Part shown: in pieces, positions 1,719 through 42,598 of the stretch
Position numbering within the stretch: the stretch's first letter is position 1
Layout of the letters: each line of letters starts with the position of its first letter
IMG/VR virus record: IMGVR_UViG_3300017725_000013
Coordinates: 1 to 42,646 of that record
From: a virus
DNA: 42,646 nucleotides
Strand: one strand, 5' to 3'
Notes under the pieces: generated by a model
Told to the model about the DNA's origin: nothing
The model's input: only the letters and a program-made list of their open reading frames with translations
The model's database searches: none
Made by a program: the position numbers and the translations under genes

Positions 1719-4700
1719 TTAATTAAAATTTGTATCAAAATTATTGTTTCCACTATTAAAATCATTTGAAAAATCAAATGAATCACTAAAAGGTGATTTA
1801 GAAGATGACTTTCTAGATTTTTTGAAGTCTTTATATGGACCCACAGCATACTCTGACCAACCTAATGCTCTAGATATTTTTTGCCATCCTTCCATGTCTT
1901 CTGTCATTACAGCTCTCATATTATTAAATTTCATTAAAAGTCTATCTGCAGGAAAATTAGTTGCTGCTGAAATTACATTAGAACTAGCTAAATATGCTGG
2001 GTTTTTACTGTCCATTAATCCTAACTTTTTAATGTCTTTATAGTTCCAAGATATTGCGTTACCTGCTGCTCTTAGTTTTCTAATTTTAGTATCTAAACTA
2101 GGTACAAAGTCTAAAGCTTCTAAAGCTACATTAGCATATTCTGGTCTAGATTTTTTGTTTTCATTATAAACTTTAATAAGCATATTTTTTAAAGTAGAAA
2201 CAGCAGCGCCTTTAATACCAGATCCTCTTAACATAGTGTCTAGCATTCCGTTAACAGTTCTAATATTTCTATCTTGTTTGCGTTTTTGAACATTAGGATT
2301 AGCCGCTTGCTCATCAGTTTCCCATATATCACCAAACATAGCATTAGACATTCCATTAAACAATAAGTTTTGAGCTACACTGTAGTATATTATTTTTCTT
2401 ATGTTTTCTCCTTTATTACCTCTACCCGCCATCAAATCTTCAACGGCTCTTTTAGTTATTCTAGTGTATTGTGCAGGAGTGTTGTTAAATGCTAATATTG
2501 CTCTTCCTGAAATACTAGCTTGCTCAGAACTAAGCATAGATGTTGCCGCTGATTGTTGGGTTTGTTCAGATATTAATCTAAAATCTTCAAAAGCTTTATC
2601 TCCTGCTTCTTTTTCAGACATACCTTGTTTTTTATATGTTCTAGTTCGATTAACTAAAAATGTAGCACCACCTGAAGCTATTGCCGCGGCATCTGCAGCT
2701 CTAGTAACTATATATCCTTTTTGAAGAATTAAATTGGTTAAACCTTTAATACCGTTAGATTGTGCTGCTTCAGCAACTTCATTCTGGCTAACATCTATTT
2801 TGTCTCCTCCCATTCTATCTTGAAGATAATCACTATTCCATATTCTTCTAACAGCCGCAGAATATACAGGAAGATTTCCTATAACCATACCTGCAGCTAT
2901 CGGGTTGTTATCAGAGGCATTAAGATAATTTATAGAAGAAGTTAACTGCATTACACCAGATTTTACGTTTAAAGACATGGTTACAGCATTGGCTCCATTT
3001 AACCAATCAGCCATCCTGTTTTCCCATTCGTTTTTAGATGGCTTTCTGTTTCTACCTGATTTAATTCTAGTTATCATATTTTCTAATGCAACTCTATATT
3101 TAGTTCCATATTTTGCTTCTAAATTATTTAAATTTTGTTTAGAATATATTTGATTAATGTTGTTTGTAAATCCTGTTGCTTCTAAATATTTAGCTCTTTT
3201 AACAGTTCCTAATCCACTTCTTAAATCAGTACCCATAGTACCTGTTAGCCACATTTCAGTAGGTGGAGGATAACCATCACCTTTTGTCATTTCTATTAAT
3301 TTGTCAGAAAAAGCTACAAACTCAGGATTTGCATCAACATAGTTTATAACATCTTTTAAATTTTGTTTGCTTAATCCAGGTACTTCCATACCTTGCCTTG
3401 CCCAGTTATAAATTCTAATAGCATTTTCGTTAGTAAAACCTTTTACATCACTATTTTTTCTTAACCGTTTAGGAACATTTTTTAATTGTTTTTTTAATCC
3501 TAACCAAGACATTTCGACGTTTCTAGTGTCTATACTAGCAAGATTTTCTGCTTTATTTAAAGGATCTATTAAATTTTCTTTATACCAAGCAAATTGTTGT
3601 TCACCTAATTTACCTTTTGATAAAGTTCTATATATTAATCCTTTAAAATCTTCTGCAGATGATGGAATCCATATATCATCTCTTACTTTTTCACCTAAAA
3701 GCTTTGCTTGAGCCGCTGAATAATTTCTTATTTCTGAAGATCCATCTCTAATAATAGCGTTTAACTCTGAGCTTAAGTCTTTTGAATCAAAAGATTTTTT
3801 AATATTTTGTGATATTTCAATATCTTTAATACCTAATCTATTTAAAACCTCTGCGGTTGAAGTATTGTAAGGTAAATTTTCACCTTTAGCAACACCTGTT
3901 CCTTCGTCAGCAAGCTTTATTAATTCAAAATTATTATCATCTACTTTTATTTTTTCTTTTATAGTTTCTTTTTTTAATGAGTTTTCAAAAAGTATAGTTT
4001 CTGATGTAACTAAATTTGGATCACGCTTCATTAAAGTTTGTAATTCTGTTAAAACTGTAGCTTTTTGCTTTGCAGGTATAGTGCTAGCTATTTGTTCTGC
4101 CATAGTAATGTTTGTCATACCAGGCTCTGTTAACATAACTTGATTTTTCATTTGTGATAATGTAGAAAAAACATTTGAAGTAAAATTAGTTCCAGCTGTT
4201 GCTTTTTCTCCAATAATGGGGCTAAAACTTGTAGTTCCACCCATATCTCCACTGTCATTAAAATTAGATAACTCTTTAGGTATCACATGTTGTTTAGCTA
4301 CATTTTTCATGAAATAATCTAATTTTTTCTCAAAATCTGCTTTAGATTTAAAACCAGCAGGTTGAAACATAAAATCTGTAAAATTAAGCAACTGTAAAGC
4401 GTGTTCAATATGATTTGCTGGTGTTTTTCTTAAATTTCCTTTTTTATCAGTATATTCAATTTGTTTACTACCTTCAACAGCTATGCTTTCTACTTTATAC
4501 AAAGACTTTATTAAACCTGTAGCTATATTTGTTTGTTGACTAAAGCTTAATAACATCATTTCTTTTGCCATTGTTTTTTCTTTACCAGGTTTAGCCTCAG
4601 CGTAAACATCATACATACTCATTATAAAATCTTTTGCTACAGCTTGATTTGCAGCAGCGGTTTCAGCATATGTAAAAGGAACCTTTTCTCCATTTTTAAG

Positions 4701-7700
4701 TATAAATTTACCATCAGTTCCTTTTTTAAATCCACTTTTAGTTAACAATCCATAAGCATAAGTGTTTAATTCTTCAGCTCTTTTTAATGTGTTGTCTCCG
4801 TATTTTTTCTTTAATTCAATTTGTTTATCAGTAATTTTTTGTTTAAAAAGACCCCAAGCAGGTATAAAAAAAGCTTCTCTTTCTGTAATTTCTTTTTCAG
4901 TTAATTTTCTTCCTGATTTAAACGATCCTTTTCCTGTATAATTATCAATAAAAACTTCATTTCCTCCACCTTCTTTTTCTGATCCTTTTTTAAAATTTAC
5001 AAATTTTAATTTACCATTAACTGTTTCAAGCCTCATGTTACTTTTGCTTCCAATACCTAAAGTTTTTATAATGGCGTTAACTTGAGTTTTGTCTAAACCT
5101 TCAAGTTTACCCATGTTTTTTAAAACTTTTTTCATATAATTTTGAAAAAGTTTTTGTTTTCTAGGGCTTTTGTTTAATTCGCTATAAGATACATTTTCTG
5201 GATTTAATCCTAAACTTCTTGCTATGTTAGCAGTGCTTTTTGCAGCCTCCTTTTGCATTACTTCAAACTCTTCTTTAGTAAAATCAGAATTTTCTAATAT
5301 TAAAACTTCTGTTTCAGCAAACAATTTATCAGCGGCCTTTTTTTCAGCAAGTTTCATAAAACTTTCAGGAACAAGCTTAATCATGTAAGATTTTACTTCT
5401 GCAGTAGCTTCACTATTGTTTATAATAGTTACCATATCGTTTATTGAAAAACCACCAGTTTTTACTTTTTCTTTTAATTCTGTTTCTACACCCTCAAATA
5501 TATTTTTAGAATCAACAAACCTAGATTTACCTTTACCCATATTTTCTATGACCTGTAAATCAAGACCCATTTTTCTGCCTACATCTTGAGCTTGCTTTAT
5601 ATTTAAAGATTTATTTATTAAATCAATTATTCCTTTCATGGTTTGAGCAACAGCAGCTTGTTCTTTTGTACTTCTTGGCCCTAATTGATTACTTCTTTTA
5701 CCATCGCTAATACCTATAGCATTGTATATATCTTTTAATTCAATATTTCTTTTTAATCTATATTGAGGATTTCCATTAATTACTTTTCCAGTTGATTCGT
5801 ATAATAAGTTTCTAACATTATTAAACATACCCGTAGGCATTCCACCAATAAGTTTTGTTTTAAAAACTGTTTTTCCAGCTTCTTTACTTGCAATCTTATC
5901 AATAACCGGATTACCTTTTGGACCCATTAATAAAACCGTTTCAATAGGCGTGTTAGCTTCTTGAATAATTTTTAAACTCCATTTTAAGTTTGCAGGATTT
6001 GCTAAAAAAGCTAAAGCTTTTCTTTGATCTTTTTTATCAAAATTATCTTTAGAGTTTCTTATTTTATTAGCAGGTATACCAATCATTTCACTTAAAAGCT
6101 CTCCGCTAAAACCTTGTTTTCTTGCTAAATCGTTTACATTTTTAAATGTGCCTTTAAAATCAGGATTTAAAACAACTCCTGCAAAATCTAATTTACCTTT
6201 ATTTATTACGTCTTTATATTTAGGTAAATAATCGCCTTTATTATCTTTTAAACGAATGGTGGGTGGACCGTCTAATACATTTATTTTTTTATTAGTTTTA
6301 GCAATTCCAGATCTTCCAGCTGAACCAGGACTTAAATCTAAGTTTTCAAAACTACTAGTTTTAAAAGTTTCACTATAACCTTGTTGAACCTGTCTTTCTT
6401 CTGAAATTGTTAAGTTGTCAATACTTGATGTGAAGCTGGTTTGCTTAAACTGCTCAGTACCCAGTTTGTTTATTCTTAAGTTATATAAATTACTTGTTTG
6501 TTCGGCTATTGGCAAATTTTTTTCCCCAACTTTTGAAACATCATAGTCTAAAAATCTTTGATAATACTCTTGTTCAAGATCTTTCTTAAACTGCTCATAA
6601 GTTACACCCTCACGATTACCCTCTAAAGTTCTTGTATACAATCTTTTCATTGAAGCCGCAAAAACAGGTTGTGCAGCTTTTAATATTAAAGCTTTATCTT
6701 TTTCGTTTTCTAAAGTCTTTAAAAATTCTTTTGTAGGTTTACCGTCATTCCAACCTTTTCTATCTTTAAACAGTTCGTTAGTTACAGTGTAGCTTTCTTT
6801 TTTAACCGCAGTTTCTTCAGCTTCAATTAATTTAGAATCTCTTTGTGTAGTTTTTTCATCTACTACAATACCTATAGTTCCATTACCTCTTTCTACAAAC
6901 TGTATGTTTCTGTCTTTAAAAGCATTCATCTCTGGCGCTAACATGTCAACAAATTTCTGAGCTTTACCAGTTTTCATTTCCCTTAATGCTTCAAAGAAAT
7001 AACTTTGTATTTCCGAAGCTTTTGTGGGAGGATTACCTTTATAACCTACAAGATCAAAGTTTGTTTTAATATCTTTTATTACTTCAGTAATAAAATTAGG
7101 GGCTTCAGCTGTATAATATAACTCTGGTCTAGAAAATATTTGAACTACATAAGCTAACTGCTCTTCTTTTGACATATTTTCAGACATAGCAACACCATCT
7201 TTTTCATACGCTTTTTCCATTATTACTCTAAACCTTCTTAAGCCTCCTTTAGGAAGTCCAGCTGCTTCAATACTTTCAGGACTCATTTTAGGTAGTCTGT
7301 TCATAACATCACCTACAATTCTAGGTTGAGAATTAGGAAATTTTTTATTAGTAACACTTCTAACGTAGTGAGTCATTTCATGATTAACTAAATCTTGAAT
7401 ACTACCAACAACCCCTTCTTCTATCATTTTATTAGCCAATCTTTTATTAACTAATACTTCATATTTTCCATTTCCAAGATCATTAAATCTAGCAGGAACT
7501 TCCACACCTTTATCAGCATCCCATAATTTTTCTCTTGCAACTTTTGCATCTGAAACAACAGTTAAAACGCCTGATTTAATATCACCACCACCTTTTTTTA
7601 GAATATTAGTGATTGGATCCATTGACTTTGTTTGTAAAGTTTTTTGTAAGTTTGGATCATCTATACTAATTAAAGCACCACCATTTCTAAGTTCAACAAC

Positions 7701-24121: not shown

Positions 24122-25642
24122 TTATTGTTGGAATAATACGAAATTATTCGCGGCTTGAGTAACCAAACATCTTTCAGTCAACCAATTAACTTGCATCGCA
24201 TCTAACGCAGTAGTGTAAGCACCACCTGCAGATCCTGTGATCCAGTTTTTGTATCGTCTGTCTTCAGTTTGTGAAGCTCTATATCTAACGTGAAGGAACG
24301 GTCTTCTTATGTTAGTACCAAGTTGTTGGTCATACACAGTTGAAGTTCCAGCAGGTATTAATACACCTTCGATATTGTTAACCGCAACAGCACCTCTTGT
24401 AGAAGCGTCGTTTAAGTATTTCCAGCTAGTTTTGTAGAAGTCATAAGAACCTCTTCTAAAACCAGAGAAACCTAGGTTAAGTGCCATATCCTCAGAGTTT
24501 TCAAATAAACCATAAGCAGTACCACCAGAAGAACCAGCAGAAATTTGCCCTAGCATATCGTCAAATTCTAAATCAAGATCTCTATTTAAGAAAAGCATGT
24601 TTTCTTCGATAGCGCCTTGAGTATCTAAGTTCTTAAGAACTTGATCAAAGTCAGAAATACCAGTAACTCCAGAAAAACCAGATAGTATGTTACCTCTTGA
24701 TTGAATAGCAGCAAATAAACCTTCTGATCCATGCGCATTAACTGCAGCACTATATCCCGGAACATTTCCAGCAGCTGCACCAGCAGCAAAACTGTTAGCA
24801 CCAGCACCACTAGCTAATTCACTTTCAACCATTGCCATTTCTAAGTAGTCATCAAATCTTAGTCTTGTTTCAGACTCAGACTTTAAATACCATAAGTATC
24901 CTGATGTACCATCTTCTGTAGCAACTTCTACCCAACCGATTTGAGACATATCAGAACCATTTATTTGAAACGAATCTTTTATGATAATTGGTTGATTAGA
25001 AAATTGAGTAAACTGTGGTTGAATAGATTTGTAAGATGCAGCATTAGGAGCAGCACCTTGAGCCGTAGCTTGAGATGTACCTTTTGCAAAAGCAGAACCA
25101 TATACAAATATTTTCAACGAAGTTGATCTGTTAGCAGCTCCAGCTGCAACACCTGCATCAGCTAAAGTAAGCCAGCTGTTTCCTACAAAAGTAAAAGCAG
25201 TAATAGATGCAAGAGGACCAGCGATATTTTGGCTAGTACCTACAACACCTTTTATTGTAACACCAGTAGCTGGATTCATTACAACAATAGTGTCGTTTGC
25301 AAAAATAGCATTTTGAACACCATTAGCTAATGGAAAAGTAAATACATTTCCGTTTGCAGCAGCAGTTCCAACGAGAGTTACACCAGTGTAAGACACGTGT
25401 AATCTGTTTTGTTCAGACCAAATTACTTGATCAGATGTCATTGGCATTTCAGCGCCAACCATACGTAAGAAACCATTTAAAGTTCTATTTCCGTATCTCT
25501 CTACCTCAGCTTCATAAACCTCAGGTAAGTATTGTTGTGCAAAGTCATTTGCACCAGCATTAAACGCTAGGTAATTGTTTTGTAGCGCTAATTGAGTTTG
25601 AGAAGGTATAATGCTTCCAAACACAGGAGAAATTTGTCCCAT
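24122..25642 (-). CDS. Major capsid protein
   Basis: This 506-residue protein lies directly after the scaffold gene and before the strong terminator. It begins MGQISPVFGSIIPSQTQLAL without a signal peptide. It has the HK97-type layout expected of a large capsid subunit: an N-terminal arm (1-50), an inserted beta domain (about 70-220), a long helix LWYLKSESETRLRFDDYLEMAM, and a conserved C-terminal part with GFRRGSYDFYKTSWKYLND, FLHVRYRASQTEDRRYKNW and LTERCLVTQAANNFVLFQQ. From memory these C-terminal phrases recur in capsid proteins of uncultured marine phages. It is likely the most abundant protein of the virion. The leader is A/T-rich with AAAAC repeats. Confidence 0.9.
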   Translation of the reverse strand: MGQISPVFGSIIPSQTQLALQNNYLAFNAGANDFAQQYLPEVYEAEVERYGNRTLNGFLRMVGAEMPMTSDQVIWSEQNRLHVSYTGVTLVGTAAANGNVFTFPLANGVQNAIFANDTIVVMNPATGVTIKGVVGTSQNIAGPLASITAFTFVGNSWLTLADAGVAAGAANRSTSLKIFVYGSAFAKGTSQATAQGAAPNAASYKSIQPQFTQFSNQPIIIKDSFQINGSDMSQIGWVEVATEDGTSGYLWYLKSESETRLRFDDYLEMAMVESELASGAGANSFAAGAAAGNVPGYSAAVNAHGSEGLFAAIQSRGNILSGFSGVTGISDFDQVLKNLDTQGAIEENMLFLNRDLDLEFDDMLGQISAGSSGGTAYGLFENSEDMALNLGFSGFRRGSYDFYKTSWKYLNDASTRGAVAVNNIEGVLIPAGTSTVYDQQLGTNIRRPFLHVRYRASQTEDRRYKNWITGSAGGAYTTALDAMQVNWLTERCLVTQAANNFVLFQQ

Positions 25643-26848: not shown

Positions 26849-29257
26849 TTATTGTGGTTCAAATTGCTCTAAACCAAATCCGCCTAAATTATCATTTCCT
26901 GCGGATTCAAAATCAGTTGGTGATGTAGCGTTTTGTCTTTGACTAATCATTTCACTTTGTTGAGTAGCTTGAATTTTAGTTCTTTTATCTTTACGATCTT
27001 CTATTTCAGCTTCTTTTGTTTTTGTAACTTGAGCTTGTGTTTGAGCAAGTTGTATTTGATAATTAAATTCTTCAGCCATTAATTGTTTTTTAATCATAGC
27101 TTCTTGTTCCATCCTTTGTATTTCAAACTGAGATTTAGCTTGCTCTATTTGTATCTCTGTTTGTGCCATAGCTTCTCTTTTTTGAACCTCATTTAATGCT
27201 GCTTGCTCGGCTGTTTTAGCATTAGCTTCACCTTGAGCTGCAATCATAGCTTTTTGATTAGCTTGATCTTCTTTTTGTTTTTGTTTTCTTTTAAGCTTTA
27301 GCATTTGATTAGCTAACTTAAGATTTTTTATTTGTCTTATATCTATAGCGTCTTCTAAATCAATTCCTTGAGATTGTAAAGCTATTTGTATATTTTGTTC
27401 CAACATTGCTTTTTCTTCATCTTCAGGTTCTAGTTCTAAATATATTCCAAAATCATACAAATGTAATTCTTTCATATCTTCTAAATTTCCTACACTAAAC
27501 TTTCCAATACTAGATTTTAAAGCGTTATTAGTTAAAGAAAACTCAAGCATGTCAGCTATTCTTAATGAAATATTTTCACAAGCTCTTAAAGTTAAATATA
27601 GACTAGACCTTAATATATGTCGCGTTGCCACATTTGAAGCATTAGCTGCCATTTTTTGTAAACCAACTAAAGCATCTTTATCAGGCATAGAACCATCTCT
27701 TGCTTCATTAAGCCCTGTTACATCTCTTATCATTTGTAAATAATACTGATAAGTATTTATTAATGATTGTATTTTACCATTAGCACTAGATGATTGTAAT
27801 TCTTGTATAGGTACTTTACCTCTATTCGGATCACCATCTTGTGTTAAGCTTCTACCAACAATACTACCGGTCTGAAAATACATGTTTAAAGCTTCTTGCG
27901 GATTATAATTAGTACCATTGCCTAAATCAACTTCAGCCAGACCATCAACATCAACAAACACCCCGTCTGGAACCATACGTTGAATTACTTGTTGTAATTT
28001 TAATGATGTAAGCTGTATCATGTCAGCAAAACTTGTACATCTACTTACTAACGATTCAATACGACCTTGATATAAACTAGGAGCACACACTGCGTAATTC
28101 ATCATAACTTTTGTTAAATCACTTTTTGGTCTTGTCATGTTTTCTGCTAGCTTCCATTCAAGCATTTGTGGAACACCCATAACTTTAGCACCACTAAATA
28201 AAACTTCTATAGACCTTGAAGCTCTATTAAAATTATCACTTTTAGGTGGATTAAAAGTATCTGGTTTTTCTAAAGTTTTTTGTAAACCATTTTCAGTTTC
28301 TTTTATTTTAAAAACTTGATCAATAAATGTTTTATATTCAAAAAACAGTATTTGAACTAAATCGTTATCGTAATTAGGATTAGCAATATAACCATCACGC
28401 CCTGGATACCTAACCATTTTTTTTAATTCATCATCAGTTAAATAAGGAAATTTCTTTTTAATTTCAGCTAAAGTCATAGACTTTATTTCACCAACATAAT
28501 ATATGTCTTCAAAATTAGGATCATTTGTATATGAATAAACTAAATTAGCAGGATCTACATAATCAACAACTACACCTTCTGATTTATTAAAAGAAGTTTT
28601 TAAAGCTCCAATTCCAATTGTAATTATATCTTCAGTTACTCTTTTATTTACTAAATCATATTTACTAAAAGCTAAAACATTATTTATAGCTTCTTCTTCT
28701 GCAATTTCTATACCTTGCTTATAGCTTAATTGCATATGTAACTCTAATTCTTCTTTTGATCTAGGTAAATCTTTTATAGGTAAAGAAGATTGTTTAAAGC
28801 TTAATCCTGTATTTTTTTCGGCATTAGCTATTATATCTTTTGCAAACATATCTTTTGCAACACCATCTAAATATGTAGATCTTTTTTTAGAAGAAAAAGG
28901 ATCTTGAGCATATGCTTTAATATCGTAACTTTTAGCACTAATACCGTTTGATACTATATCTACAAACTTAGGTATAATAGGAACTGGCTTCCAGTCTAAA
29001 TTTAAATAAGACAAATCACCATTAATAGATAATTCATCTTTATATTTTTGTACGTTTTGCTCTCCACGAGCGTATAATCTTAAGTTATGAAAATTTTGAT
29101 AACCTGTATTCCATCTACTACCATTTACTCTACCTCCTCTAAACCATTCGTATTCAATAGCTTGCCCTACTAACAAACCATATTCTAAAGATTTCTTTTC
29201 CTCTTCAGATACCATCTGACTAGGAAACGCACTATTAATACCAGTGTTTAATTTCAT
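26849..29257 (-). CDS. Portal protein
   Basis: This 802-residue protein is encoded between terminase and scaffold. Its start overlaps the terminase stop by ATGA. The N-terminal half carries LDWKPVPIIPKFVDIVSNGI, and a central portion has VVDYVDPANLVYSYTNDP and RDVTGLNEARDGSMPDKDA, the type of motif seen in the wing/stem region of large portal proteins. The last ~150 residues are a long Gln/Glu/Lys/Ala-rich coiled coil (about 655-770) matching the C-terminal barrel of podovirus portals. It forms the dodecameric vertex through which DNA is packaged. The length is long for a portal but typical of podoviruses with a barrel. Confidence 0.88.
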   Translation of the reverse strand: MKLNTGINSAFPSQMVSEEEKKSLEYGLLVGQAIEYEWFRGGRVNGSRWNTGYQNFHNLRLYARGEQNVQKYKDELSINGDLSYLNLDWKPVPIIPKFVDIVSNGISAKSYDIKAYAQDPFSSKKRSTYLDGVAKDMFAKDIIANAEKNTGLSFKQSSLPIKDLPRSKEELELHMQLSYKQGIEIAEEEAINNVLAFSKYDLVNKRVTEDIITIGIGALKTSFNKSEGVVVDYVDPANLVYSYTNDPNFEDIYYVGEIKSMTLAEIKKKFPYLTDDELKKMVRYPGRDGYIANPNYDNDLVQILFFEYKTFIDQVFKIKETENGLQKTLEKPDTFNPPKSDNFNRASRSIEVLFSGAKVMGVPQMLEWKLAENMTRPKSDLTKVMMNYAVCAPSLYQGRIESLVSRCTSFADMIQLTSLKLQQVIQRMVPDGVFVDVDGLAEVDLGNGTNYNPQEALNMYFQTGSIVGRSLTQDGDPNRGKVPIQELQSSSANGKIQSLINTYQYYLQMIRDVTGLNEARDGSMPDKDALVGLQKMAANASNVATRHILRSSLYLTLRACENISLRIADMLEFSLTNNALKSSIGKFSVGNLEDMKELHLYDFGIYLELEPEDEEKAMLEQNIQIALQSQGIDLEDAIDIRQIKNLKLANQMLKLKRKQKQKEDQANQKAMIAAQGEANAKTAEQAALNEVQKREAMAQTEIQIEQAKSQFEIQRMEQEAMIKKQLMAEEFNYQIQLAQTQAQVTKTKEAEIEDRKDKRTKIQATQQSEMISQRQNATSPTDFESAGNDNLGGFGLEQFEPQ

Positions 29258-31476
29258 CTATTAATTATTTTTGATTCATTGCCTCTATTGTCATATTTAG
29301 AAAAACTTAAATTTACAGGTTCTTTAATAAGATCAGCAACGGGTCTATATTTATTTTTATTACAAGCCATAATAGCTAATCCAGAGCTTATCGACGCATC
29401 GTGTTTTGTTCTATCATTTATATTAAAAGCAGCCCAATCTTCTAAAGTTCTTTGAAAATACATTGATCCATATTGTTCATTATTGTAACCTACAAAATTT
29501 TCAATATAAGCTTCAATTGCAGCGGCGTGTGCTTGTTTTATGTCTTGGCTTGAGTTTGGTATACCACCTATTTCTTTTTCTGTTATAGATAATTTATGCA
29601 TTGTTTTATCTGGTCGATTCATAGAAAAACCTCTATAACCTCTACGTTTAAAGTAATAAAGTAATCTTGGTTTATTGTTTTCTGCTAATATTGGCATACC
29701 ATAAAAATGACAAGCCATAAGAACATCTTCAAAAAATATTTCAGCAGTAGAAGGTCTTGCTATATATTCTAAAAAGAATAAATTTGGTGGAGCGTCTTCC
29801 ATGCTAAACTTAGTTAAACCATGTAAAGAACCTTTTGATCCTCTACCATCTACGGTTCCGGATATATCATAACTGTCACACCCAAAAGCTCCCATATGAT
29901 CATTACCAGGATATTTTTTACCATTTTTTATAAGTATTCTATTTTGTTGATTTATATTAGGAACCCAAGAAACCATAAACCTACCTTGTTTACTTGGTAC
30001 AAATATAACGCTAGTGTCTTGAATACCATCTTCCCATTGAAAATTACCTTGAGTAACCACGTTCGAATGTTTTAAATCTTCATTATAATCTATTTGTTCG
30101 TAGATCTTAGTTAGATTAAATAAAGATTGTTTTGTTTCATCTCTGAACGCGTGTTTTTCTGTGCGAGGAAATTGTCTATATAATTCATTAAGTGCATCAG
30201 GATCATTCTTAAGGCCATCTACTTCGTTCTCCCAGTGTTCAATGACGCCAATTTCAATCTTTTGGCCATCGATGCCATCAACTTCGGATTTTGGAGTTTC
30301 AAAGACAGGGTATCCATGAGCATCAATGTATCCTTCGTAGTTCCATTCCATAGGTATGAACAAGCTATATAATCCTGAGCTAGTCTGTCCATTGCGGTTT
30401 CTTTTGGTAACATTTGAGTCATCATATAATTTTTTATAGTTTCTACCGCCTTTGTCAAGAGCATTGCTCGTTGACCCCATCATACATTTACCAATTATCC
30501 TACTACCTAATCTTAATGTTGTTTTTGTAACACGCCAGTTATTAAGAATGTTTTCCGGCTTTTCCCATTTACCCGCTTCATCGTGTACAAGGAGCATAAG
30601 TTTTTCACCGTCATAGGAGTTATCTCCAGTATTTTTCCAGTCGATAGTTGTATCGAGTCCAACCATTTCTTCAAGCCGTTCATTTGCTTCAAGCTTTTTT
30701 CTTGTAAACTTTGACGCTGGTACTCTATATGCGAGCTCCGTTTTGGGTCTGTCCATACCATCTTGGATCGGTTTAAAAAAAAACGGGTAGTTAACTGAGA
30801 TTGGAACAATTTTATCTGTAAACATCTTTTTAGCATCCGCTCCAGATTTTGAGAGAACACCGAATCTTGCATCACTTGAGATTGTTGCCATATTAACGGT
30901 TTCGCCCGATGCCATAAAAGAGAATCCTGACCTTCTGTTTTTAAGGTATGCCATGCCATAACATCTTTTGTCTGCTTTGCAAGCTTCCCAGAATATGAAG
31001 AATAATCTGTTTGCTTCTCTAAAGTCTGGTTGCCCAACATCAATCTTTGACCACTGCAAATACATGTAGTGAGTACCAGTAATATAGGTAGGAACACCTT
31101 TGTTATAAAACCAGAAACCTTCGTCTCTTCTTTTAAATTCTTCATCTATGTAATTGTGCAGTTTTTGTTTAAATGTGTCCGGGTAAGTTTTCCAATCAAA
31201 TATTGTTTTAATATATTTTAATTCTCTTCTTTTTTCAAACACTTCCCAGTATTGATCTTTTATAGACTTAGATCTTTTATAAGAATTATTTTCTAGTGGC
31301 AAAGCAATTACAAGGTTTTGTATTTCGTATATTTCACCGATTTGTCCGGTTCTGCTTATTACTATAATATCATATTCTTTATTATAACCATACTGCCATT
31401 TTTTAGACTTATTGAGTCTTTTAATAACATGTGGCTTTATAGGTTCAACTATTTTATATAAATTTTGCTCGTACAT
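29254..31476 (-). CDS. terL: Terminase large subunit
   Basis: The 740-residue packaging motor has an ATPase half and a nuclease half. Visible are a degenerate Walker A-like segment KNRRSGFS (residues 179-186), a Walker B LMLLVHDE (293-300, with D299 and E300), a coupling motif MGSTSNALDKGG (333-344) and a first nuclease aspartate in GAFGCDSYDISGT (D534). Later acidic residues occur in PILAENNKP and KHDASISSGL. The style of the ATPase motifs and GGRNYKKLYDDS resembles, from memory, terminases of crAss-like and related phages. It overlaps the portal gene, and its start shares a base with the upstream gene's stop. Confidence 0.92.
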   Translation of the reverse strand: MYEQNLYKIVEPIKPHVIKRLNKSKKWQYGYNKEYDIIVISRTGQIGEIYEIQNLVIALPLENNSYKRSKSIKDQYWEVFEKRRELKYIKTIFDWKTYPDTFKQKLHNYIDEEFKRRDEGFWFYNKGVPTYITGTHYMYLQWSKIDVGQPDFREANRLFFIFWEACKADKRCYGMAYLKNRRSGFSFMASGETVNMATISSDARFGVLSKSGADAKKMFTDKIVPISVNYPFFFKPIQDGMDRPKTELAYRVPASKFTRKKLEANERLEEMVGLDTTIDWKNTGDNSYDGEKLMLLVHDEAGKWEKPENILNNWRVTKTTLRLGSRIIGKCMMGSTSNALDKGGRNYKKLYDDSNVTKRNRNGQTSSGLYSLFIPMEWNYEGYIDAHGYPVFETPKSEVDGIDGQKIEIGVIEHWENEVDGLKNDPDALNELYRQFPRTEKHAFRDETKQSLFNLTKIYEQIDYNEDLKHSNVVTQGNFQWEDGIQDTSVIFVPSKQGRFMVSWVPNINQQNRILIKNGKKYPGNDHMGAFGCDSYDISGTVDGRGSKGSLHGLTKFSMEDAPPNLFFLEYIARPSTAEIFFEDVLMACHFYGMPILAENNKPRLLYYFKRRGYRGFSMNRPDKTMHKLSITEKEIGGIPNSSQDIKQAHAAAIEAYIENFVGYNNEQYGSMYFQRTLEDWAAFNINDRTKHDASISSGLAIMACNKNKYRPVADLIKEPVNLSFSKYDNRGNESKIINR

Positions 31477-31748
31477 TACTTAGATCTTTTTTCAGCAAAA
31501 CCTTTAAAAGTAGTTTCTTTTTTATCTACAATTATATCTTCTAATATATTACTTTCTTCTTGTATACGATTAAGTATTTCAAAAGCATCAAATATAGCTA
31601 GCTTTTTTGTAGCTGCAGCATTTTTTAATCTATCAGCTGATATATCATCATCAGAATCAACAATAGCTTCTTTAGCAACTTTAATAAGTTCTTCAACTGC
31701 TTTGTGCCCAGCTTGGATTATGCTCAACTTCGTTTCCTTGACGTTCAT
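31476..31748 (-). CDS. Small protein upstream of terminase, candidate small terminase subunit
   Basis: This 90-residue, helical protein is encoded immediately before terL with a 1-base overlap. It starts MNVKETKLSIIQAGHKAVEE and contains an acidic patch EAIVDSDDDISADRLKNAAA. It is shorter than usual small terminase subunits and has no clear helix-turn-helix, so the assignment rests on position alone. Its first 56 bases overlap out of frame with the end of the preceding tandem GroES-like gene (overlap 31693-31748), an unusually long overlap. An internal non-AUG start further in cannot be excluded. Confidence 0.6.
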   Translation of the reverse strand: MNVKETKLSIIQAGHKAVEELIKVAKEAIVDSDDDISADRLKNAAATKKLAIFDAFEILNRIQEESNILEDIIVDKKETTFKGFAEKRSK

Positions 31749-32298
31749 ATTTAATTACAATATCATTAGATTTCATACAATAAAGACGTTTGCCATCAAC
31801 GACAAAGTCATATTCTCCAAATGGTTTATAGCCAACAAGATCTCCCTCGTTGATTTCTAGCGCTTCTAACGCATTATTACCATATTTTAATATACCAATA
31901 AGGTTTTGCTCTAAAACATTATGTATTTCAACTTTATCTTTTATTGGTGCTATAAAACATCTATCATTAAAAGCTTTCCATTTATCTTTTTTTTTATATA
32001 AATATATTTGATCTTGTTGAACAAAATATAAATTATCTTTAAAATAAGATTTACTGTTTTTTTCTTTACCCTTCATATTATACCATCTTCTAAACACATT
32101 ATGATGAATCATAACTAAATCACCTTTTTGTATAGGAGTTTTGTAAGATAAAGGTATTTCAATAACTTTAGCTATATTATTTACAGATTTAAAAGTTTCT
32201 ACCTGTGTGTTAATTATAAGGCTTTTGTCACCTACTTTAACTTCATTATTATATCGCTGGCCTACTGGCTCAACAATAAAATCAAATAAGCTTTTCAC
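31693..32298 (-). CDS. Tandem GroES-fold protein (putative double co-chaperonin)
   Basis: The 201 residues appear to hold two GroES-like barrels. The first spans about residues 1-102, with FDFIVEPVG, a flexible segment EVKVGDKSLIINTQ, VNNIAKVIEIPL, KGDLVMIHHNVFR and DNLYFVQQDQIYLYK. The second spans about 110-185, with NDRCFIAPI, LIGILKYGNNALEALEINEG, DLVGYKPFGEYDFVVDG and RLYCMKSNDIVIKYE. The pattern 'G-hydrophobic-GN...GD(I/L)V...V.G......SDI' matches the second half of GroES. The second barrel seems to lack a mobile loop. I recall similar proteins in marine phages, but a tandem arrangement like chloroplast Cpn20 is my inference. The gene starts where the next upstream gene stops (1-base overlap). 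Confidence 0.7.
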   Translation of the reverse strand: MKSLFDFIVEPVGQRYNNEVKVGDKSLIINTQVETFKSVNNIAKVIEIPLSYKTPIQKGDLVMIHHNVFRRWYNMKGKEKNSKSYFKDNLYFVQQDQIYLYKKKDKWKAFNDRCFIAPIKDKVEIHNVLEQNLIGILKYGNNALEALEINEGDLVGYKPFGEYDFVVDGKRLYCMKSNDIVIKYERQGNEVEHNPSWAQSS

Positions 32299-32525
32299 TA
32301 ATATTCTAAATCGTACTCAACGGATATAGCCATGTTAGAATTAAACTTCTTCCACGGCAATACCTCGTCTTGTTTTTTGATAAAAATATTATAAGAATTA
32401 TCTTCTGTATCAGAAAGTATATGTGATATAGTATGACCACCATATACTGACTGCCCTACTGAGTAGTGCATAGCATCAGTCTTATAGTCAGAACCAATAC
32501 TTATCTTTCTAATAATTGAAGACAT
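32298..32525 (-). CDS. Conserved small phage protein, unknown function
   Basis: This 75-residue protein starts MSSIIRKISIGSDYKTDAMH and ends VEYDLEY. The sequence is compact, mixed alpha/beta, with YSVGQSVYGGHTISHILSD in the middle. I recall short proteins with this layout close to terminase genes in marine phages, without function. It overlaps both neighbours by one base (TAATG arrangements), so it is translated together with the tandem GroES-like gene. Confidence 0.7.
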   Translation of the reverse strand: MSSIIRKISIGSDYKTDAMHYSVGQSVYGGHTISHILSDTEDNSYNIFIKKQDEVLPWKKFNSNMAISVEYDLEY

Positions 32526-34119: not shown

Positions 34120-34623
34120 TTATTTCATCATTTTAAAATCTTCTCCATCAATTTTTCCATTTTTGTTTTTATCTAGCTTTACTTGGCCACCTTTTAATTT
34201 AGTAGGAGATTTTTTTTTACCATGACCACTACCATATTTAGTAAGACCATCAGGTTTATTACCTTGACTTTCATTTTCTCCTTCTCTTTCATCTCTACGA
34301 TCTTTCATAGATTGTTTCTTACCAGATTCTTTACCATCTTTCATACCTAAAGATTCGTCTTGTCTATCGTTATATCCTTGACTTTTTGGATTACCCATGC
34401 TTTTTGATTTATGCATAAAGCCTCCTTTTGGATGACCTCCTGAAATAATTCCAGATTTATTAGGACTATAATCTCCAGCCATCATTTTTTTTTGATTAAG
34501 ATCCATACCACCACCTGTATTTTCTTTTTTTGGTGATAAATTTACTCCACCTCCGTGCATTTTGCCTGCCATAGCAATTCCATTAACTGTTGGCATGTCT
34601 TTTTTACCTGTACCGTATCCCAT
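34120..34623 (-). CDS. 167-residue Gly/Lys-rich protein with EF-hand-like loop
   Basis: Start chosen at MGYGTGKKDMPTVNG because the longer frame (to 34701) would overlap the upstream gene by 53 bases. The protein is low in hydrophobic residues, rich in Gly, Lys, Met, Ser and Asp, with repeated basic-acidic segments such as KDGKESGKKQSMKDRRDERE. It ends in DKNKNGKIDGEDFKMMK, a canonical DxNxNGxIxxxD/E calcium loop. It has no recognised family and may be an intrinsically disordered, Ca-stabilised virion protein. The start context is A/T-rich. Confidence 0.65.
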   Translation of the reverse strand: MGYGTGKKDMPTVNGIAMAGKMHGGGVNLSPKKENTGGGMDLNQKKMMAGDYSPNKSGIISGGHPKGGFMHKSKSMGNPKSQGYNDRQDESLGMKDGKESGKKQSMKDRRDEREGENESQGNKPDGLTKYGSGHGKKKSPTKLKGGQVKLDKNKNGKIDGEDFKMMK

Positions 34624-34648
34624 AATAATAATTTTTAATTTGTTTTTT

Positions 34649-34846
34649 TTATTTTTTTGATTTGCAGCCAAAATTTTTGGCATAGTTAGCCATCTTAACA
34701 ACAGCTGATGAATATTTATTTTTGTTTTTCATTACCATACTAGCAGCCGAACAAGCTGACATACCTCGTTTTTTAGCCCATGCAGTAAATTTTCCTTTGT
34801 TTCCATCTTTTATTTCAGGAAACTTTTTTAATAGTGGAGATAACAT
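34649..34846 (-). CDS. 65-residue conserved phage protein, unknown
   Basis: This short, basic protein starts MLSPLLKKFPEIKDGNKGKF and contains TAWAKKRGMSACSAASMVMK and YSSAVVKMANYAKNFGCKSKK. The pattern 'GKFTxWAKxxGMSxxxAAxxVMxNKxKYSxxVVKMANxAKNFG' is, as I recall, shared by short proteins in marine phage structural regions. It has no known function. The start shares one base with the preceding stop, so it is probably coupled to the 252-residue gene. Confidence 0.72.
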   Translation of the reverse strand: MLSPLLKKFPEIKDGNKGKFTAWAKKRGMSACSAASMVMKNKNKYSSAVVKMANYAKNFGCKSKK

Positions 34847-35627: not shown

Positions 35628-36035
35628 TTAACATTTCCATCTTCGTCTAGCAGCTCTACCTCTTTTACCTTTCCATCCTTTTGATCTTGCACAAAAAGAT
35701 TTTCTTCTTTTAGCAGCTTTACTACCTTTTTTTACTTTACCAGTAACTGCTGTTTTTAATTTACTACCAGGATTAGCTTTTCTGTAAGCTCTAACACCTT
35801 TTTCTGTCATACCAGCACCTTCTTTAGCTTTTCTAAAGTTTCTACCTTTTCCTGTTGTAGTTTTTCTAATTCTTTTGCTAGGTGATTGAGAATCTTTTAA
35901 AGCTTTATCTGTTGGATAACCTTTGTCACCTGGTTGAGCAGGGCTTTCACCTCTATCTCTTTTAGCATGAATATTAGCCCACAAGCCTCCTTTTGCAATT
36001 GGTGAAAAAGGATTATGATTTTGTTGATATGCCAT
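35628..36035 (-). CDS. Basic conserved phage protein (DUF6321-like)
   Basis: The 135 residues are rich in Lys, Arg and Gly with KSFCARSKGWKGKRGRAARR near the C-terminus and the segment EGAGMTEKGVRAYRKANPGS followed by KLKTAVTGKVKKGSKAAKRR. This matches my memory of a short conserved family in marine phages and cyanophages (DUF6321). Cysteines occur in FCAR and at the last residue. The protein could bind DNA or be a virion component. The start shares a base with the endolysin stop. Confidence 0.78.
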   Translation of the reverse strand: MAYQQNHNPFSPIAKGGLWANIHAKRDRGESPAQPGDKGYPTDKALKDSQSPSKRIRKTTTGKGRNFRKAKEGAGMTEKGVRAYRKANPGSKLKTAVTGKVKKGSKAAKRRKSFCARSKGWKGKRGRAARRRWKC

Positions 36036-36499
36036 TATACTACTTTATATTTTGTTTTACCATTTTCTTTATAAGCCTGTAAGCATCTTCTTCTATTAAC
36101 ATCTTCTGATATGTAACTTACATGTACCCAATCAGGATTATTTTTATCACCAAACTCCCATATCATCTGATCATAATCTAAATTACACTTAATGTATTCA
36201 AACATTTCAGCATTAGTTTTATAACCATATTTATCATCTATGTCAAGTGCACATCCTATACAATGTTGTGAGGTTGTACTTCCGCCAATAGCAGAATTTA
36301 ATTTGGGTGAGCGATAGAAACTATTAATAGCAATTGGACCGCCTACCCATTTACGTAGAGGTTCAAAAACTTTTTCAGCAATAGTTTTCATGTTAATTAA
36401 ATCTAAATCACGAGGTGCATTATCAATACTTAACCTGGTGGCCGTGTGAGATTTAACACTTTCTTTAAGCGATATGTGTTCACTTATTCTATCACTCAT
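36035..36499 (-). CDS. M15-family peptidase endolysin (peptidoglycan-cleaving)
   Basis: This 154-residue protein has the M15 core: NSFYRSPKLNSAIGGSTTSQ followed by SQHCIGCALDID with H79 and D86 (SxHxxGxAxD), and NPDWVHVSY with H126, together the zinc triad of D-Ala-D-Ala peptidases and M15_3 endolysins. It would cut peptide stems of peptidoglycan during lysis. There is no signal peptide, so release depends on the holin at 32794-33249. It lies in a run of small late genes. The start MSDRISEH is preceded by an A/T-rich leader. Confidence 0.9.
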   Translation of the reverse strand: MSDRISEHISLKESVKSHTATRLSIDNAPRDLDLINMKTIAEKVFEPLRKWVGGPIAINSFYRSPKLNSAIGGSTTSQHCIGCALDIDDKYGYKTNAEMFEYIKCNLDYDQMIWEFGDKNNPDWVHVSYISEDVNRRRCLQAYKENGKTKYKVV

Positions 36500-37029: not shown

Positions 37030-37473
37030 TTATCGGTTTTTATCTTTGTTTACGTTATTTATGGATGTAATCATTACTTTGTCTATATAACTTTTACCTT
37101 TCATTATTTTATTTCTAGCGGTTGATGTTGGTATATCTTCTTTACCAAGCATGATACGGTACATGCGACTTATTAGTTGTTTACACTTAAAGGAAACTTT
37201 ATAAATATTATACTTTTGGGTTGTTCGATTATGTTGTCTCCATACGATTATCCAACCTTGTTTAAGTAATCTGTTCCAGCGTCTGTTGTCCCAACTATAA
37301 GAATATGTACCGATTTTAAAATCTTCTCTTGTAAAAAGATCCATGCAATCGAAATAAATTAACAGTTCAAGATCTGCATCATTTAATTCATTATTTTTAC
37401 AGGCCCATTTTCTAATGATCCTATAATGTTTTAAAAGATTTAAATCTCTAACATCACTTGCTTCTAGTCTCAT
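37030..37473 (-). CDS. Winged-helix-like DNA-binding protein (possible regulator)
   Basis: The 147-residue protein has a helix-rich first half (LNLLKHYRIIRKWACKNNEL, LELLIYFDCMDLFTREDF), a turn with WDNRRWNRLLKQGWIIVWRQ, and then HNRTTQKYNIYKVSFKCKQL, a wing-like strand pair, as in MarR-type winged-helix domains. The C-terminal 40 residues are basic and unstructured. It overlaps the groES stop by 4 bases, so it is co-translated with the chaperonin pair. It may control late gene expression or the chaperonin operon; this is inference from fold resemblance only. Confidence 0.6.
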   Translation of the reverse strand: MRLEASDVRDLNLLKHYRIIRKWACKNNELNDADLELLIYFDCMDLFTREDFKIGTYSYSWDNRRWNRLLKQGWIIVWRQHNRTTQKYNIYKVSFKCKQLISRMYRIMLGKEDIPTSTARNKIMKGKSYIDKVMITSINNVNKDKNR

Positions 37474-37730
37474 AACACAACAACTACGTGTGCCATATTA
37501 ACTATTTGATATATTTCTTTTTTTATCTCTATTTGATGAGTATTGTTTTTATCAAAATAAATAACATCACCTTTTTTGATCCCTATAACATTACTACCAG
37601 CTGATAATATTGTACCTTCTGCGTATCTTATATCTTCTCGTTGTTTTTCTGCTAAAAACAAACCGCCTTTGGTTTCAGAGATGCCTTGTTTTGTCATGTC
37701 TACTATTAAATTATTCCCTATTGCTTTCAT
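37470..37730 (-). CDS. groS: Co-chaperonin GroES (Cpn10)
   Basis: The 86-residue protein shows the Cpn10 layout: MKAIGNNLIVDMTKQ as first strand, a mobile loop ISETKGGLFLAEKQ (residues 17-30) with GGLFL (22-26) in place of the usual GGIVL tripeptide that docks on GroEL, AEGTILSAGSN as the turn and KKGDVIYFDKNN (52-63) as the GD-IV strand. It ends VNMAHVVVVL, shorter than the usual SESDILA end. The gene follows groEL and starts 20 bases inside it, the reverse of the common bacterial groES-groEL order. Confidence 0.88.
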   Translation of the reverse strand: MKAIGNNLIVDMTKQGISETKGGLFLAEKQREDIRYAEGTILSAGSNVIGIKKGDVIYFDKNNTHQIEIKKEIYQIVNMAHVVVVL

Positions 37731-40105: not shown

Positions 40106-42598
40106 TTATTTGTTTTTTAATATTTCTATTTCTGCTTTTAGTTCTTGTATTGATTTCATCAAAGCATACATCATATCAGTTGAATAAACAGTTTTTAATT
40201 CTATTCCATCTTCTGGAGTTTCTCCAAAACCATCATTGTTTACAAGTTCGGGTGCTATAGCTTCGACTTCCTGTGCAATAACACCAAGATTTTTGTTAGT
40301 TCCTTCTGGTTCATCTTTGTAATTAAATAATCTTACTGGGATAGAACATATTTTATCTAAATATTTTCCAGAGTTTTCAATATTGTGTTTTACTCTTTCA
40401 TCTGATAGATTTACATTGTTAGCTGCAAAATTATATATACCTCCATTGTTAGCTATATAAAATCTAAAACCATTATACGAAGCATTCGTGTTATAATAAT
40501 GATAATTTGTATTACCTGTAGATGACGAACTATTTCCTACTAAACCTATATAAGGAGCAATTGCATCATCGATATATTTAAAACCAAGACCAGACGTTAA
40601 AGAAGCACTTGTATTTCCAAATAAAATATGTCCCCCAGATGTTATACGCATTCTTTCTCCAGCACTTGCGTCATAAACTTGCCAACATAATGTATCTGTA
40701 CCTATACTTGTACCTGTATAAAACCCACCATTAGTTGTTTGTGTTAAAACAGCAGCATTTCTTGACCTGTTATTTTGAACAGTTACATATGCTTGTGAAT
40801 TTGTTGCAGCTTGATAAACTTCTAGTTTTTGACCAGGCGAACTCGTTCCAATCCCGACGTTGCCAATTGTATCAATAAACATACTTGTAGAAGTAGTTTG
40901 AGCTGTACCACTTGTTGCGGCTCTTTTAAAATATATTTTACCATCTACTAAAATTATAGATGAACCTGCTACATTACTCGTAATAGCTTGAAATACACCA
41001 GATGAATTTAAATAAGTATTTTGACATATTGCTATTTCATCATCTGTTCCATAAGCTGCAATTTGACTTGATTGTCCTATTTGTAACATTTTCCATCCAC
41101 CACCTGAGGCAATATAACCATTTGTAGGTATAGTCATAGTTCCAATTCCTACGTTTCCGTTACTGTCTAAAAGCATTCTATCCGTATTGTTAGTTCTAAA
41201 TCTCATAGAATTATCCGAATTTAAATATTCTATACGACCAATACCACTATTTGATGGATCAGAATCATCTGTGCCAAATTTTATTAAACAACTACTATTA
41301 GAGCCTGCAAAAATACGCATTCTTCCATACACACTTACGTTACCAGTTGTATCTATATTAACCCCATTTCCTGCTCCACTTGCACCATTATTATATCTAA
41401 AATTTAATATTCCTCCACTATTCCATATATCCCAAGCTGCATTATCATAATCTTTTAATACAATTCCTGCTGTTCCTGCACCTATTCCATTTCTACCAAC
41501 TACACCTAAAACTGTTCCTACGCTTGCAGGCGAACTAACAGAACCACCTACATTTACATTTCCTGCAAAAATTGCGTTTCCACTGTCATTCATTTTTAAA
41601 TCGTATCTACCTCCACTAACCGCAACTGGATTAAAAACGTAAAAACCTTGAGAATCAATTCCAATTTGTCTATTATTATAGCTAGATGAACGAAACTCCA
41701 TCATTCCATTAAGTCCACTATAAATATTTCCTGCAAAAGTTGCGTTTTGTGAGCTATTAAATGTTAAAGCATTGCTTGTTGCTGATCCATTGTAATGATC
41801 TAAAATAAAATTATTACTTGCATCCCTTTTCCAAACCCAATAATCATTATTTGCAGTATTAGTCCAATAAACTTCTGCGTCATCTACTTTTACATTTATA
41901 AAATTAGTGGCTGTGTAATATGGAGCGGTAACATCTCCTGCAAAAGTTGCGTTAGTTCCTATGCTTACATTATTAGTATCAAAATTGTGTATTATAGTTC
42001 CTGCCTTTCTTAAAGCTAATATTTGTCCATCTCCCCCTGTAGTAGTTCTACCTAATTGCATAGCAATTGAATCAGAAGATACTTGTAATTCAGGAACTGT
42101 TGCTGAATTTTTTAATCCTATACCTGTTTGGTCTGCAAATCCACTTGCTGGGTTTACAACTGTGTTACCCATTAAAATATTCCCTTTAGGATTTGTTCCT
42201 TCACCAACATTTATATTTCCAGAACTATCAATTCGTATTATTTCATTACTAGCAGTAACTAATTTTATAGTATCATCGGAGGGAAATCCAATATAAGTAT
42301 TTGTGTCGCCAGTATGTCTTATGAATGAGGCTATAGAAAGCTCACCTGCAAAAGTTGCGTTTCCAATATCATTTATAACTAATCTTCCACTTGCAGCCGC
42401 ATCATCATATATTTGAAAATTACCAGATGTATCTGATAAAATAGAGTAAACTTTACCACTACCACCTGAATTTTTTAATTTAATACCTGAATTAGTTCCA
42501 CCTATTTCTAAAGCATAAGAAGCTGCATCTGTATTTATACCAACTCTAAGATCTGATGAAACTCGTAATACGTTATTTATATTTGATAAGTTTGCCAT
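40106..42598 (-). CDS. Tail fibre with C-terminal S74 intramolecular chaperone domain
   Basis: The 830-residue protein has a beta-rich shaft with repeated ATFAG(D/E/N) and GN(V/I)xVG phrases (for example NATFAGDVTAP, QNATFAGNIYSG, NAIFAGNVNVG) and a terminal peptidase S74 domain. The domain begins NLSDERVKHNIENSGKYLDK, with Ser732 and Lys737 as the expected dyad, followed by GVIAQEVEAIAPELV, and ends with a coiled coil SIQELKAEIEILKNK. S74 domains trimerise the fibre and cut themselves off at the serine. It is preceded at the window edge by a second gene of the same type. Receptor binding is inferred. Confidence 0.92.
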   Translation of the reverse strand: MANLSNINNVLRVSSDLRVGINTDAASYALEIGGTNSGIKLKNSGGSGKVYSILSDTSGNFQIYDDAAASGRLVINDIGNATFAGELSIASFIRHTGDTNTYIGFPSDDTIKLVTASNEIIRIDSSGNINVGEGTNPKGNILMGNTVVNPASGFADQTGIGLKNSATVPELQVSSDSIAMQLGRTTTGGDGQILALRKAGTIIHNFDTNNVSIGTNATFAGDVTAPYYTATNFINVKVDDAEVYWTNTANNDYWVWKRDASNNFILDHYNGSATSNALTFNSSQNATFAGNIYSGLNGMMEFRSSSYNNRQIGIDSQGFYVFNPVAVSGGRYDLKMNDSGNAIFAGNVNVGGSVSSPASVGTVLGVVGRNGIGAGTAGIVLKDYDNAAWDIWNSGGILNFRYNNGASGAGNGVNIDTTGNVSVYGRMRIFAGSNSSCLIKFGTDDSDPSNSGIGRIEYLNSDNSMRFRTNNTDRMLLDSNGNVGIGTMTIPTNGYIASGGGWKMLQIGQSSQIAAYGTDDEIAICQNTYLNSSGVFQAITSNVAGSSIILVDGKIYFKRAATSGTAQTTSTSMFIDTIGNVGIGTSSPGQKLEVYQAATNSQAYVTVQNNRSRNAAVLTQTTNGGFYTGTSIGTDTLCWQVYDASAGERMRITSGGHILFGNTSASLTSGLGFKYIDDAIAPYIGLVGNSSSSTGNTNYHYYNTNASYNGFRFYIANNGGIYNFAANNVNLSDERVKHNIENSGKYLDKICSIPVRLFNYKDEPEGTNKNLGVIAQEVEAIAPELVNNDGFGETPEDGIELKTVYSTDMMYALMKSIQELKAEIEILKNK

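Follow-up and report, generated by a model that had tools for sequence, protein, structure and literature searches.

A predicted tandem GroES-fold co-chaperonin encoded beside the terminase gene in a widespread phage family

We found that a minus-strand gene of a phage genome (31693..32298; GTG start, 201 aa, 23.6 kDa) encodes a protein that is predicted, from structural models, to consist of two GroES barrels joined head to tail. The window, that is, the whole 42,646-nt stretch of DNA analysed here (IMG/VR record IMGVR_UViG_3300017725_000013), comes from a phage with relatives among Flavobacterium and Cellulophaga viruses. The plus-strand frame of the same interval contains many stops, which places the ORF on the minus strand. 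The tandem protein is not a private oddity of this phage but a member of an already annotated phage family, PHROG 13932 ('co-chaperonin GroES'), whose profile matches it with E 3.9e-28 (residues 1-182 on profile positions 1-197 of 200). As the initial annotation of this DNA had noted, the genome separately encodes an ordinary GroES-GroEL pair about 5 kb upstream of the tandem gene. The single-barrel GroES (37470..37730, minus; 86 aa; Cpn10 38.2 bits) has a mobile loop with a GGLFL triad and is a candidate ring partner of the tandem protein, and the phage GroEL (37711..39270, minus) has 519 residues (Cpn60_TCP1 203.5 bits). We consider it probable, with appreciable room for doubt, that the tandem protein is a Cpn20-like lid that would mix with the phage single GroES and cap GroEL for the folding of a virion protein.

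We then investigated the predicted structure. The AlphaFold2 model of the window protein, built on a 38-sequence alignment, is of medium confidence (mean pLDDT 75.6 and pTM 0.71, with the five models ranging from 60.3 to 75.6), and its low-confidence zones are residues 29-37, residues 122-129 and the tail. The first PDB match is 7ekq_R, a Cpn20 co-chaperonin subunit in an entry titled CrClpP-S2c (Foldseek: E 1.1e-5, TM 0.56, rmsd 6.4; VIA: Z 10.5, rmsd 3.5, 158 residues aligned, span 1-185). We take 7ekq to be the Chlamydomonas plastid ClpP complex, in which the two Cpn20 barrels are presumably ring neighbours. Each half also matches Cpn10 chains on its own in VIA: barrel 1 (residues 1-105; 31984..32298, minus) aligns with 4v4o_O (Z 8.1, rmsd 4.0, 81 aligned, model residues 1-103), 1wnr_G (Z 8.1) and 4pj1_1 (Z 7.7), and barrel 2 (residues 106-186; 31741..31983, minus) aligns with 8wuc_a (Z 8.4, 76 aligned, residues 106-185). 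The C-terminal tail (residues 187-201 and the stop; 31693..31740, minus) is of the NPSWAQSS type and falls within the first part of the following ORF; its P195 and W197 are invariant in sequence set A1. A second AlphaFold2 model, with 66 sequences, was built for L202, a relative sharing 38% identity with the window protein, the phi18:3-like relatives being too few and near identical. This model is of good confidence (pLDDT 87.3, pTM 0.79) and again has 7ekq_R as its first match (VIA: Z 10.6, rmsd 4.4, 164 aligned over 3-193; Foldseek: rmsd 7.1), with its barrel 2 matching Cpn10 chains at up to Z 8.9. The phi18:3 'Chaperonin cpn10' ranks second among the predicted viral structures that match the tandem protein (TM 0.71). 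The two GroES barrels proposed in the initial annotation are thus recovered by both models, confidently for L202 and with medium confidence for the window protein itself, and plastid Cpn20, its chosen comparison, proved to be the right one. Since the overlay on Cpn20 is loose in both programs, the orientation of the barrels is only roughly alike.

Sequence support is uneven between the two halves, both of which had been described as Cpn10-like. Pfam Cpn10 (PF00166) matches the window protein only at residues 142-183 in barrel 2, with 16.5 bits against a cut-off of 21.1, and reports no barrel-1 stretch in the window protein or the eight relatives scanned. Four of these eight exceed the cut-off on barrel 2 (phi18:3, 32.6; phi38:1, 28.2; L203, 26.9; L202, 26.4 bits), and a Cpn10 match at E up to 1 is found in 10 of the 14 members of sequence set A2. 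PHROG 3188, the phage single-GroES family, matches residues 144-185 of the window tandem protein (E 6e-5), and the window single GroES in turn matches positions 112-188 of PHROG 13932 (E 2.2e-5). In hhalign, with profiles that omit the phi18:3 tandem, barrel 2 reaches 95.1% against bacterial GroES and 87.3% against phage single GroES, a set in which 12 of 30 sequences come from genome bins and were judged to be phage by their low Cpn10 scores. Barrel 1 gives 5.0% and 25.6%, respectively, the latter value being little above the highest of nine reversed controls (eight at 0.1-1.0%, one at 19.7%). The two barrels score only 3.9% against each other, so a recent internal duplication is unsupported. 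An hmmsearch of the PDB has its best E value, 0.11, for Cpn10 chains on the barrel-2 region, leaving barrel 1 unsupported; BamB chains come near these (E 0.25-0.26), and 7ekq_R is at E 1.2. As the sequence searches fail for barrel 1, this barrel is recognised by its predicted fold, its loop and its context.

The missing sequence support for barrel 1 could favour a modelling artefact, in which the protein would carry a generic dehydrogenase-type GroES-like barrel, or one barrel and an unrelated domain. The best non-Cpn10 row of the window model, the dehydrogenase 3wid_C, does fall on barrel 1, with Z 6.0. However, the Cpn10 chains score higher on the same barrel, and a tandem Cpn10 tops both models, whereas non-Cpn10 rows in the L202 model do not exceed Z 4.9, the value of its best dehydrogenase row. 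We therefore regard an artefact as very improbable. A dehydrogenase-type GroES-like domain was rejected because of its lower Z than the Cpn10 chains in both models.

The mobile loop, which the initial annotation had named as a mark of a double co-chaperonin, is kept in loop-like form in barrel 1 and curtailed in barrel 2. The barrel-1 stretch (residues 12-41, 30 aa; 32176..32265, minus) contains a hydrophobic triad, residues 27-29, and directly after it an Asn; pLDDT drops below 50 at residues 29-37 of the window model, in line with a predicted flexible loop. The barrel-2 loop (residues 119-132; 31903..31944, minus) has 14 residues and no hydrophobic triad in the window; the corresponding span of bacterial GroES, counted by eye, has about 25 residues. 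With lengths taken from one fixed anchor to the other, all 211 sequences have a barrel-1 loop of 28-31 residues; the loop of barrel 2 has 13-17 residues in 203 of them and 24-25 in the other eight. Among 114 nr90 members, the barrel-1 triad is entirely LIVMF in 100 and has at least two of three hydrophobic residues in 111, N30 is kept in 109, and the barrel-2 loop has at most 17 residues in 110 and at least 24 in four. A hydrophobic triad in the barrel-2 loop is found by pattern in nine of the 211 sequences, three of them with short loops (L214, L215 and L226). Phi18:3-like and phi38:1-like relatives have long barrel-2 loops. Those of L202 (GSIIVPNS), L203 (GSIIVQ) and phi18:3 (PSLIYIPEDNKEK / SLIYIPEDNKEK, resembling host GroES SGIIIPDNAKEK) look like true mobile loops; that of phi38:1 is long and lacks a strict triad (NGLRVI). 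The phi18:3 barrel 1 also carries a GroES-like ESGLEL. The simplest reading would be a two-loop ancestor and a probable loss of the second loop in the clade of the window phage. The short barrel-2 loop could represent loss of GroEL duty. By eye, the roof regions of the phage tandem proteins appear short. Barrel 1 has a conserved HHN segment, with HH at residues 65-66 in 95 of the 114 nr90 members, that was not seen in the single GroES sequences compared by eye.

We then examined the distribution of the family. With the window protein as query, 77 phage records match, all at 80% coverage or more, and the nearest are 30-38% identical. With L202 as query, 87 phage records match, 85 of them at 80% coverage or more: 68 from Flavobacterium (elemo), 15 from Cellulophaga, one from Maribacter (Panino), one labelled Caudoviricetes and two weak others, counts that include GenBank/RefSeq twins. 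Relatives in PHROG 13932 are carried by elemo, phi38:1, Calle, phi18:3 and Panino, in the same place before the gene for the terminase large subunit (TerL). The window TerL as query also retrieves 87 records, which, compared by organism counts, cover the same organisms plus two Tenacibaculum records that have a TerL match without a tandem match. Scans of IMG/VR show at least 600 viral-contig stretches (600 of 600 candidates confirmed, and 598 of 600 in a second scan); confirmed stretches number 354 of 357 for L202, four of eight for phi38:1 and six of seven for phi18:3. Genome bins contribute 27 tandem loci among 116 candidates. Bacteroidota bins are among these genome-collection matches, and ten of the bin loci (L207, L210, L211, L214, L220, L223, L226, L227, L228 and L230) are labelled Aliivibrio, Woesearchaeota, Pacearchaeota, Maricaulis, Euryarchaeota or Desulfobacteraceae; the non-Bacteroidota labels most likely reflect misbinned phage contigs.

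The loci examined were the best 80 of each scan, so that the samples lean to close relatives. Partial genes (L036, L077), a frame-broken gene (L218) and copies (L087, L088) were dropped before counting. From 273 loci with a plus-strand match to the tandem profile, we removed ordinary GroES loci (L233, L235, L250), incomplete genes and identical copies, and kept 210 full-length genes, or 211 with the window. For each of the 207 distinct genes with enough downstream DNA, TerL follows at a distance of no more than roughly 1 kb. In the larger locus set, copies included, the TerL match starts 187-1,017 nt past the tandem stop. The tandem gene is thus not a chance ORF, as the family is recurrent and TerL follows it wherever this was tested.

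In the window, the initial annotation had placed the gene beside the terminase cluster, and a single 90-aa ORF (31476..31748, minus) indeed separates it from TerL (29254..31476, minus; PHROG 6681, E 2.7e-164). The GTG start of the tandem gene overlaps the stop of a 75-aa upstream ORF (32298..32525, minus), a position also occupied by a small ORF in the phage records examined, and its 3' end overlaps the first 56 nt of the 90-aa ORF. The latter has no Pfam match and is a candidate for a small terminase subunit or for an N-terminal domain detached from TerL; it matches the TerL N-terminus of phi38:1, and of phi38:1 only, weakly (E 0.017). TerL has 876-879 residues in elemo, phi38:1 and Panino versus 740-775 in the window, MW202828 and phi18:3. 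Judging from sequence, the 90-aa ORF may correspond, as a separate gene, to the N-terminal TerL extension in the former three. TerL is followed by the portal gene (26849..29257, minus; PHROG 6547, E 1e-151) and by a putative major capsid protein gene (24122..25642, minus). The putative capsid protein (54.2 kDa) is 37% identical to a Calle_1 protein annotated as structural/major capsid protein and is the candidate client; the putative capsid proteins of four relatives have 48.8-51.9 kDa.

This setting raises a different role, outside the chaperonin cycle, in which the GroES-fold protein would be an assembly factor or a structural part of the terminase/portal machine, the latter having been suggested in the initial annotation. 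The invariable position upstream of TerL, the short barrel-2 loop and the HHN segment of barrel 1 are consistent with such a role, and 7ekq, as a ClpP entry, implies that GroES barrels can dock on other rings. However, barrel 1 keeps the loop triad, and the long barrel-2 loops of the phi18:3-like and phi38:1-like relatives also speak against it. In the stretch of phi18:3 examined, gp085, gp086, gp087, gp099 and gp104 are annotated from MS/MS but the tandem protein gp096 is not, and in phi38:1 no structural label is attached to gp089; these missing virion labels count as weak evidence. We consider a role in the packaging machine improbable, and found no positive support for it beyond the gene order and the reduced barrel 2.

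We then asked which chaperonin genes accompany the tandem gene in 34 tandem-bearing records, picked by length and lineage from the retrieved ones and including the window. Of these, 28 encode a single GroES and 23 a GroEL, and none of the 34 has GroEL without GroES. Five records (phi18:3, three from IMG/VR, and the 72.8-kb G029) combine single and tandem GroES without GroEL. Six IMG/VR records of 17.8-47.4 kb (G009, G011, G013, G030, G032 and G034) lack a single GroES, and these may be fragments. The single GroES is thus the steadier partner and GroEL is optional, and the ordinary GroES is plausibly a ring partner of the tandem protein rather than an unrelated duplicate. In two tandem-bearing IMG/VR records, G001 (loci L197-L198) and G031, GroEL is split over at least two pieces with a stop and the single GroES match has no stop; either a sequencing error or ongoing loss of the gene may account for this. 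The window GroEL is 37.7% identical to E. coli GroEL and keeps D52, D87, D398 and GDGTTT, which we take to be the nucleotide site. The GroEL apical positions compared with E. coli, presumably those that bind GroES, are only partly conserved (position 234 is Q, E or L; 263 is A or Y), which neither supports nor excludes GroES binding. Peptides of the phi38:1 GroEL are reported from infected cells and free-virion samples (PMC13288928), and GroES is unmentioned in the main text of this paper.

Taken with the short barrel-2 loop, the conserved gene order and the co-occurrence with GroES and GroEL, all seen in the sequences compared, the predicted two-barrel fold points to a co-chaperonin that would work like plastid Cpn20. 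Tandem lids alone cannot evenly match the seven-fold symmetry of GroEL. Plastids are believed to overcome this mismatch by mixing Cpn20 and single Cpn10 (as stated in PMC4242682 and PMC5780408), and A. thaliana Cpn10(1) is described as functional only as a hetero-oligomer with Cpn20 (PMC4242682). By analogy, phage tandem and single GroES chains would join one co-chaperonin ring summing to seven barrels, for example two tandem and three single chains or three tandem chains and one single chain. The long mobile loop of barrel 1 would grip the GroEL apical domains, and barrel 2 would occupy a place in the ring without gripping. With barrel 2 silent, the first ring would have five grips and the second four; GroEL binding is stated to require at least four working subunits of seven (PMC4242682). 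The tandem protein would be made late, from the packaging/capsid gene cluster, a timing suggested by the adjoining packaging genes. The mixed lid would enclose a large virion protein, with the 54-kDa capsid protein as the likeliest client, in the phage's own GroEL or, where a relative lacks that gene, in the GroEL of the host. A precedent for such a client is T4 gp31, which is reported to be essential for folding the ~56-kDa gp23 and whose longer loops and lack of a roof are believed to make room for it (PMC6318259). What stands against the mixed lid is that barrel 1 is undetectable as Cpn10 by sequence, that the window model is of medium confidence, that the overlay on Cpn20 is loose, that the barrel-2 loop is short, that the GroEL apical contacts are only partly conserved, that six of the 34 records show no single GroES, and that the tandem gene lies away from the GroES and GroEL genes.

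This separate position also suggests separate timing, which would suit two competing lids with different clients, one made of single GroES and one a homo-oligomer of the tandem protein (about four chains with one barrel excluded, or a two-storey cap). Homo-oligomers of Cpn20 are reported to be functional in vitro, and the Cpn20 of P. falciparum to be able to replace GroES by itself (PMC4242682, PMC3542282). With one loop per chain, however, a homo-oligomeric lid would offer only three to four loops per seven barrels, at the published minimum of four in seven (PMC4242682), and the single GroES accompanies the tandem protein in most of the records inspected. The two-storey cap is disfavoured solely by the loose end-to-end match to Cpn20. 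We judge a homo-oligomeric tandem lid to be unlikely, though less so than a role in packaging, and prefer the mixed ring.

A bolder version of the mixed ring, which we put forward tentatively, is that phages, independently of plastids, arrived at an asymmetric mixed lid with one gripping and one silent barrel per tandem chain, giving a seven-barrel ring with four to five grips. Given the coupling of the tandem gene to the packaging/capsid genes and of the single GroES to GroEL, an all-single lid might be remodelled late in infection into a mixed one that holds the capsid protein. If this is true, the mixed ring would tolerate the large capsid protein or hold it longer, and relatives without GroEL would impose the mixed lid on the host chaperonin.

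We then compared the tandem protein with known systems. Plastid Cpn20/Cpn21 of plants, algae and apicoplasts has the same two barrels head to tail, is the best end-to-end structural match and is accompanied in several plastids by a single-barrel Cpn10, as the phage tandem protein mostly is by single GroES. However, identity is only 12-14%, and the phage gene is a viral one beside packaging genes. Both halves of apicomplexan Cpn20 are said to keep mobile and roof loops (PMC3542282), unlike the phage protein with its short barrel-2 loop. As this loop is short in the window and in nearly all nr90 members, we do not class the protein as Cpn20 and propose only that it may work like one. Bacterial GroES has the predicted fold of each half, and barrel 2 resembles it in sequence also, but it has only one barrel, about 10 kDa in size, and a mobile loop. 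T4 gp31 (1g31, 2cgt) is likewise a phage GroES-fold lid, with a lengthened loop, a reduced roof and a capsid client. It has a single barrel versus the two predicted here (Z 6.5 / 6.1, with 1g31_A covering one barrel only), and acts as a homo-heptamer on host GroEL, unlike the proposed mixed lid. T4 is not known to have a separate GroES gene.

The existence of these proteins is not new, as they are already in databases under GroES names; the gene is labelled 'chaperonin cpn10', 'co-chaperonin GroES' or hypothetical. In the literature, chaperonin cpn10 is tabulated among the shared proteins of Pervagoviridae (Bartlau et al. 2021; PMC8776804), GroEL and GroES homologs are described for Panino (PMC11590407), and GroEL is counted in 36 of 78 genomes of group 2, which includes phi38:1, compared with chaperonins in seven of 2,429 reference viral genomes (Nishimura et al. 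2017; PMC5332604). The PHROG 13932 annotation does not mention tandem architecture or loop asymmetry, and among the matches listed from the PMC open-access literature we found no title or abstract describing a phage tandem co-chaperonin; the narrowest search matched a single paper, a review on chloroplasts. The tandem architecture, the loop asymmetry and the paired single and tandem set therefore appear to be undescribed. The double Cpn10 structure has been stated to be specific to plant-lineage eukaryotes (PMC3542282); the models suggest that a widespread phage family also has it, mostly with a single GroES and often with GroEL. The family offers a natural test of how a lid with an even number of barrels is accommodated on a chaperonin of seven-fold symmetry, and of how many mobile loops a lid needs, as both states are available: phi18:3 has two long loops, the window protein and those of its close relatives have a single one. 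Isolate systems exist for the tandem family in Cellulophaga and Flavobacterium.

Several other genes of the window are worth recording. One minus-strand ORF of 2,945 codons spans 1719-10556; in the Manatee Spring and elemo relatives, a gene of similarly giant size lies at the corresponding end of the structural cluster. Two small, very basic Lys/Arg/Gly-rich ORFs (35628-36035 and 34120-34701, minus), located between the GroES-GroEL pair and the tandem gene, look by eye like DNA-condensing or virion proteins. The adjacent ORF at 36035-36499 (minus) resembles an M15-type peptidase/endolysin, and a gene at a similar position in the Manatee Spring relative is annotated as peptidase M15. At 40106-42598 (minus), an 830-aa tail-fibre-like protein is encoded, the C-terminus of which, going by its motif, may resemble a self-cleaving endosialidase-type intramolecular chaperone.
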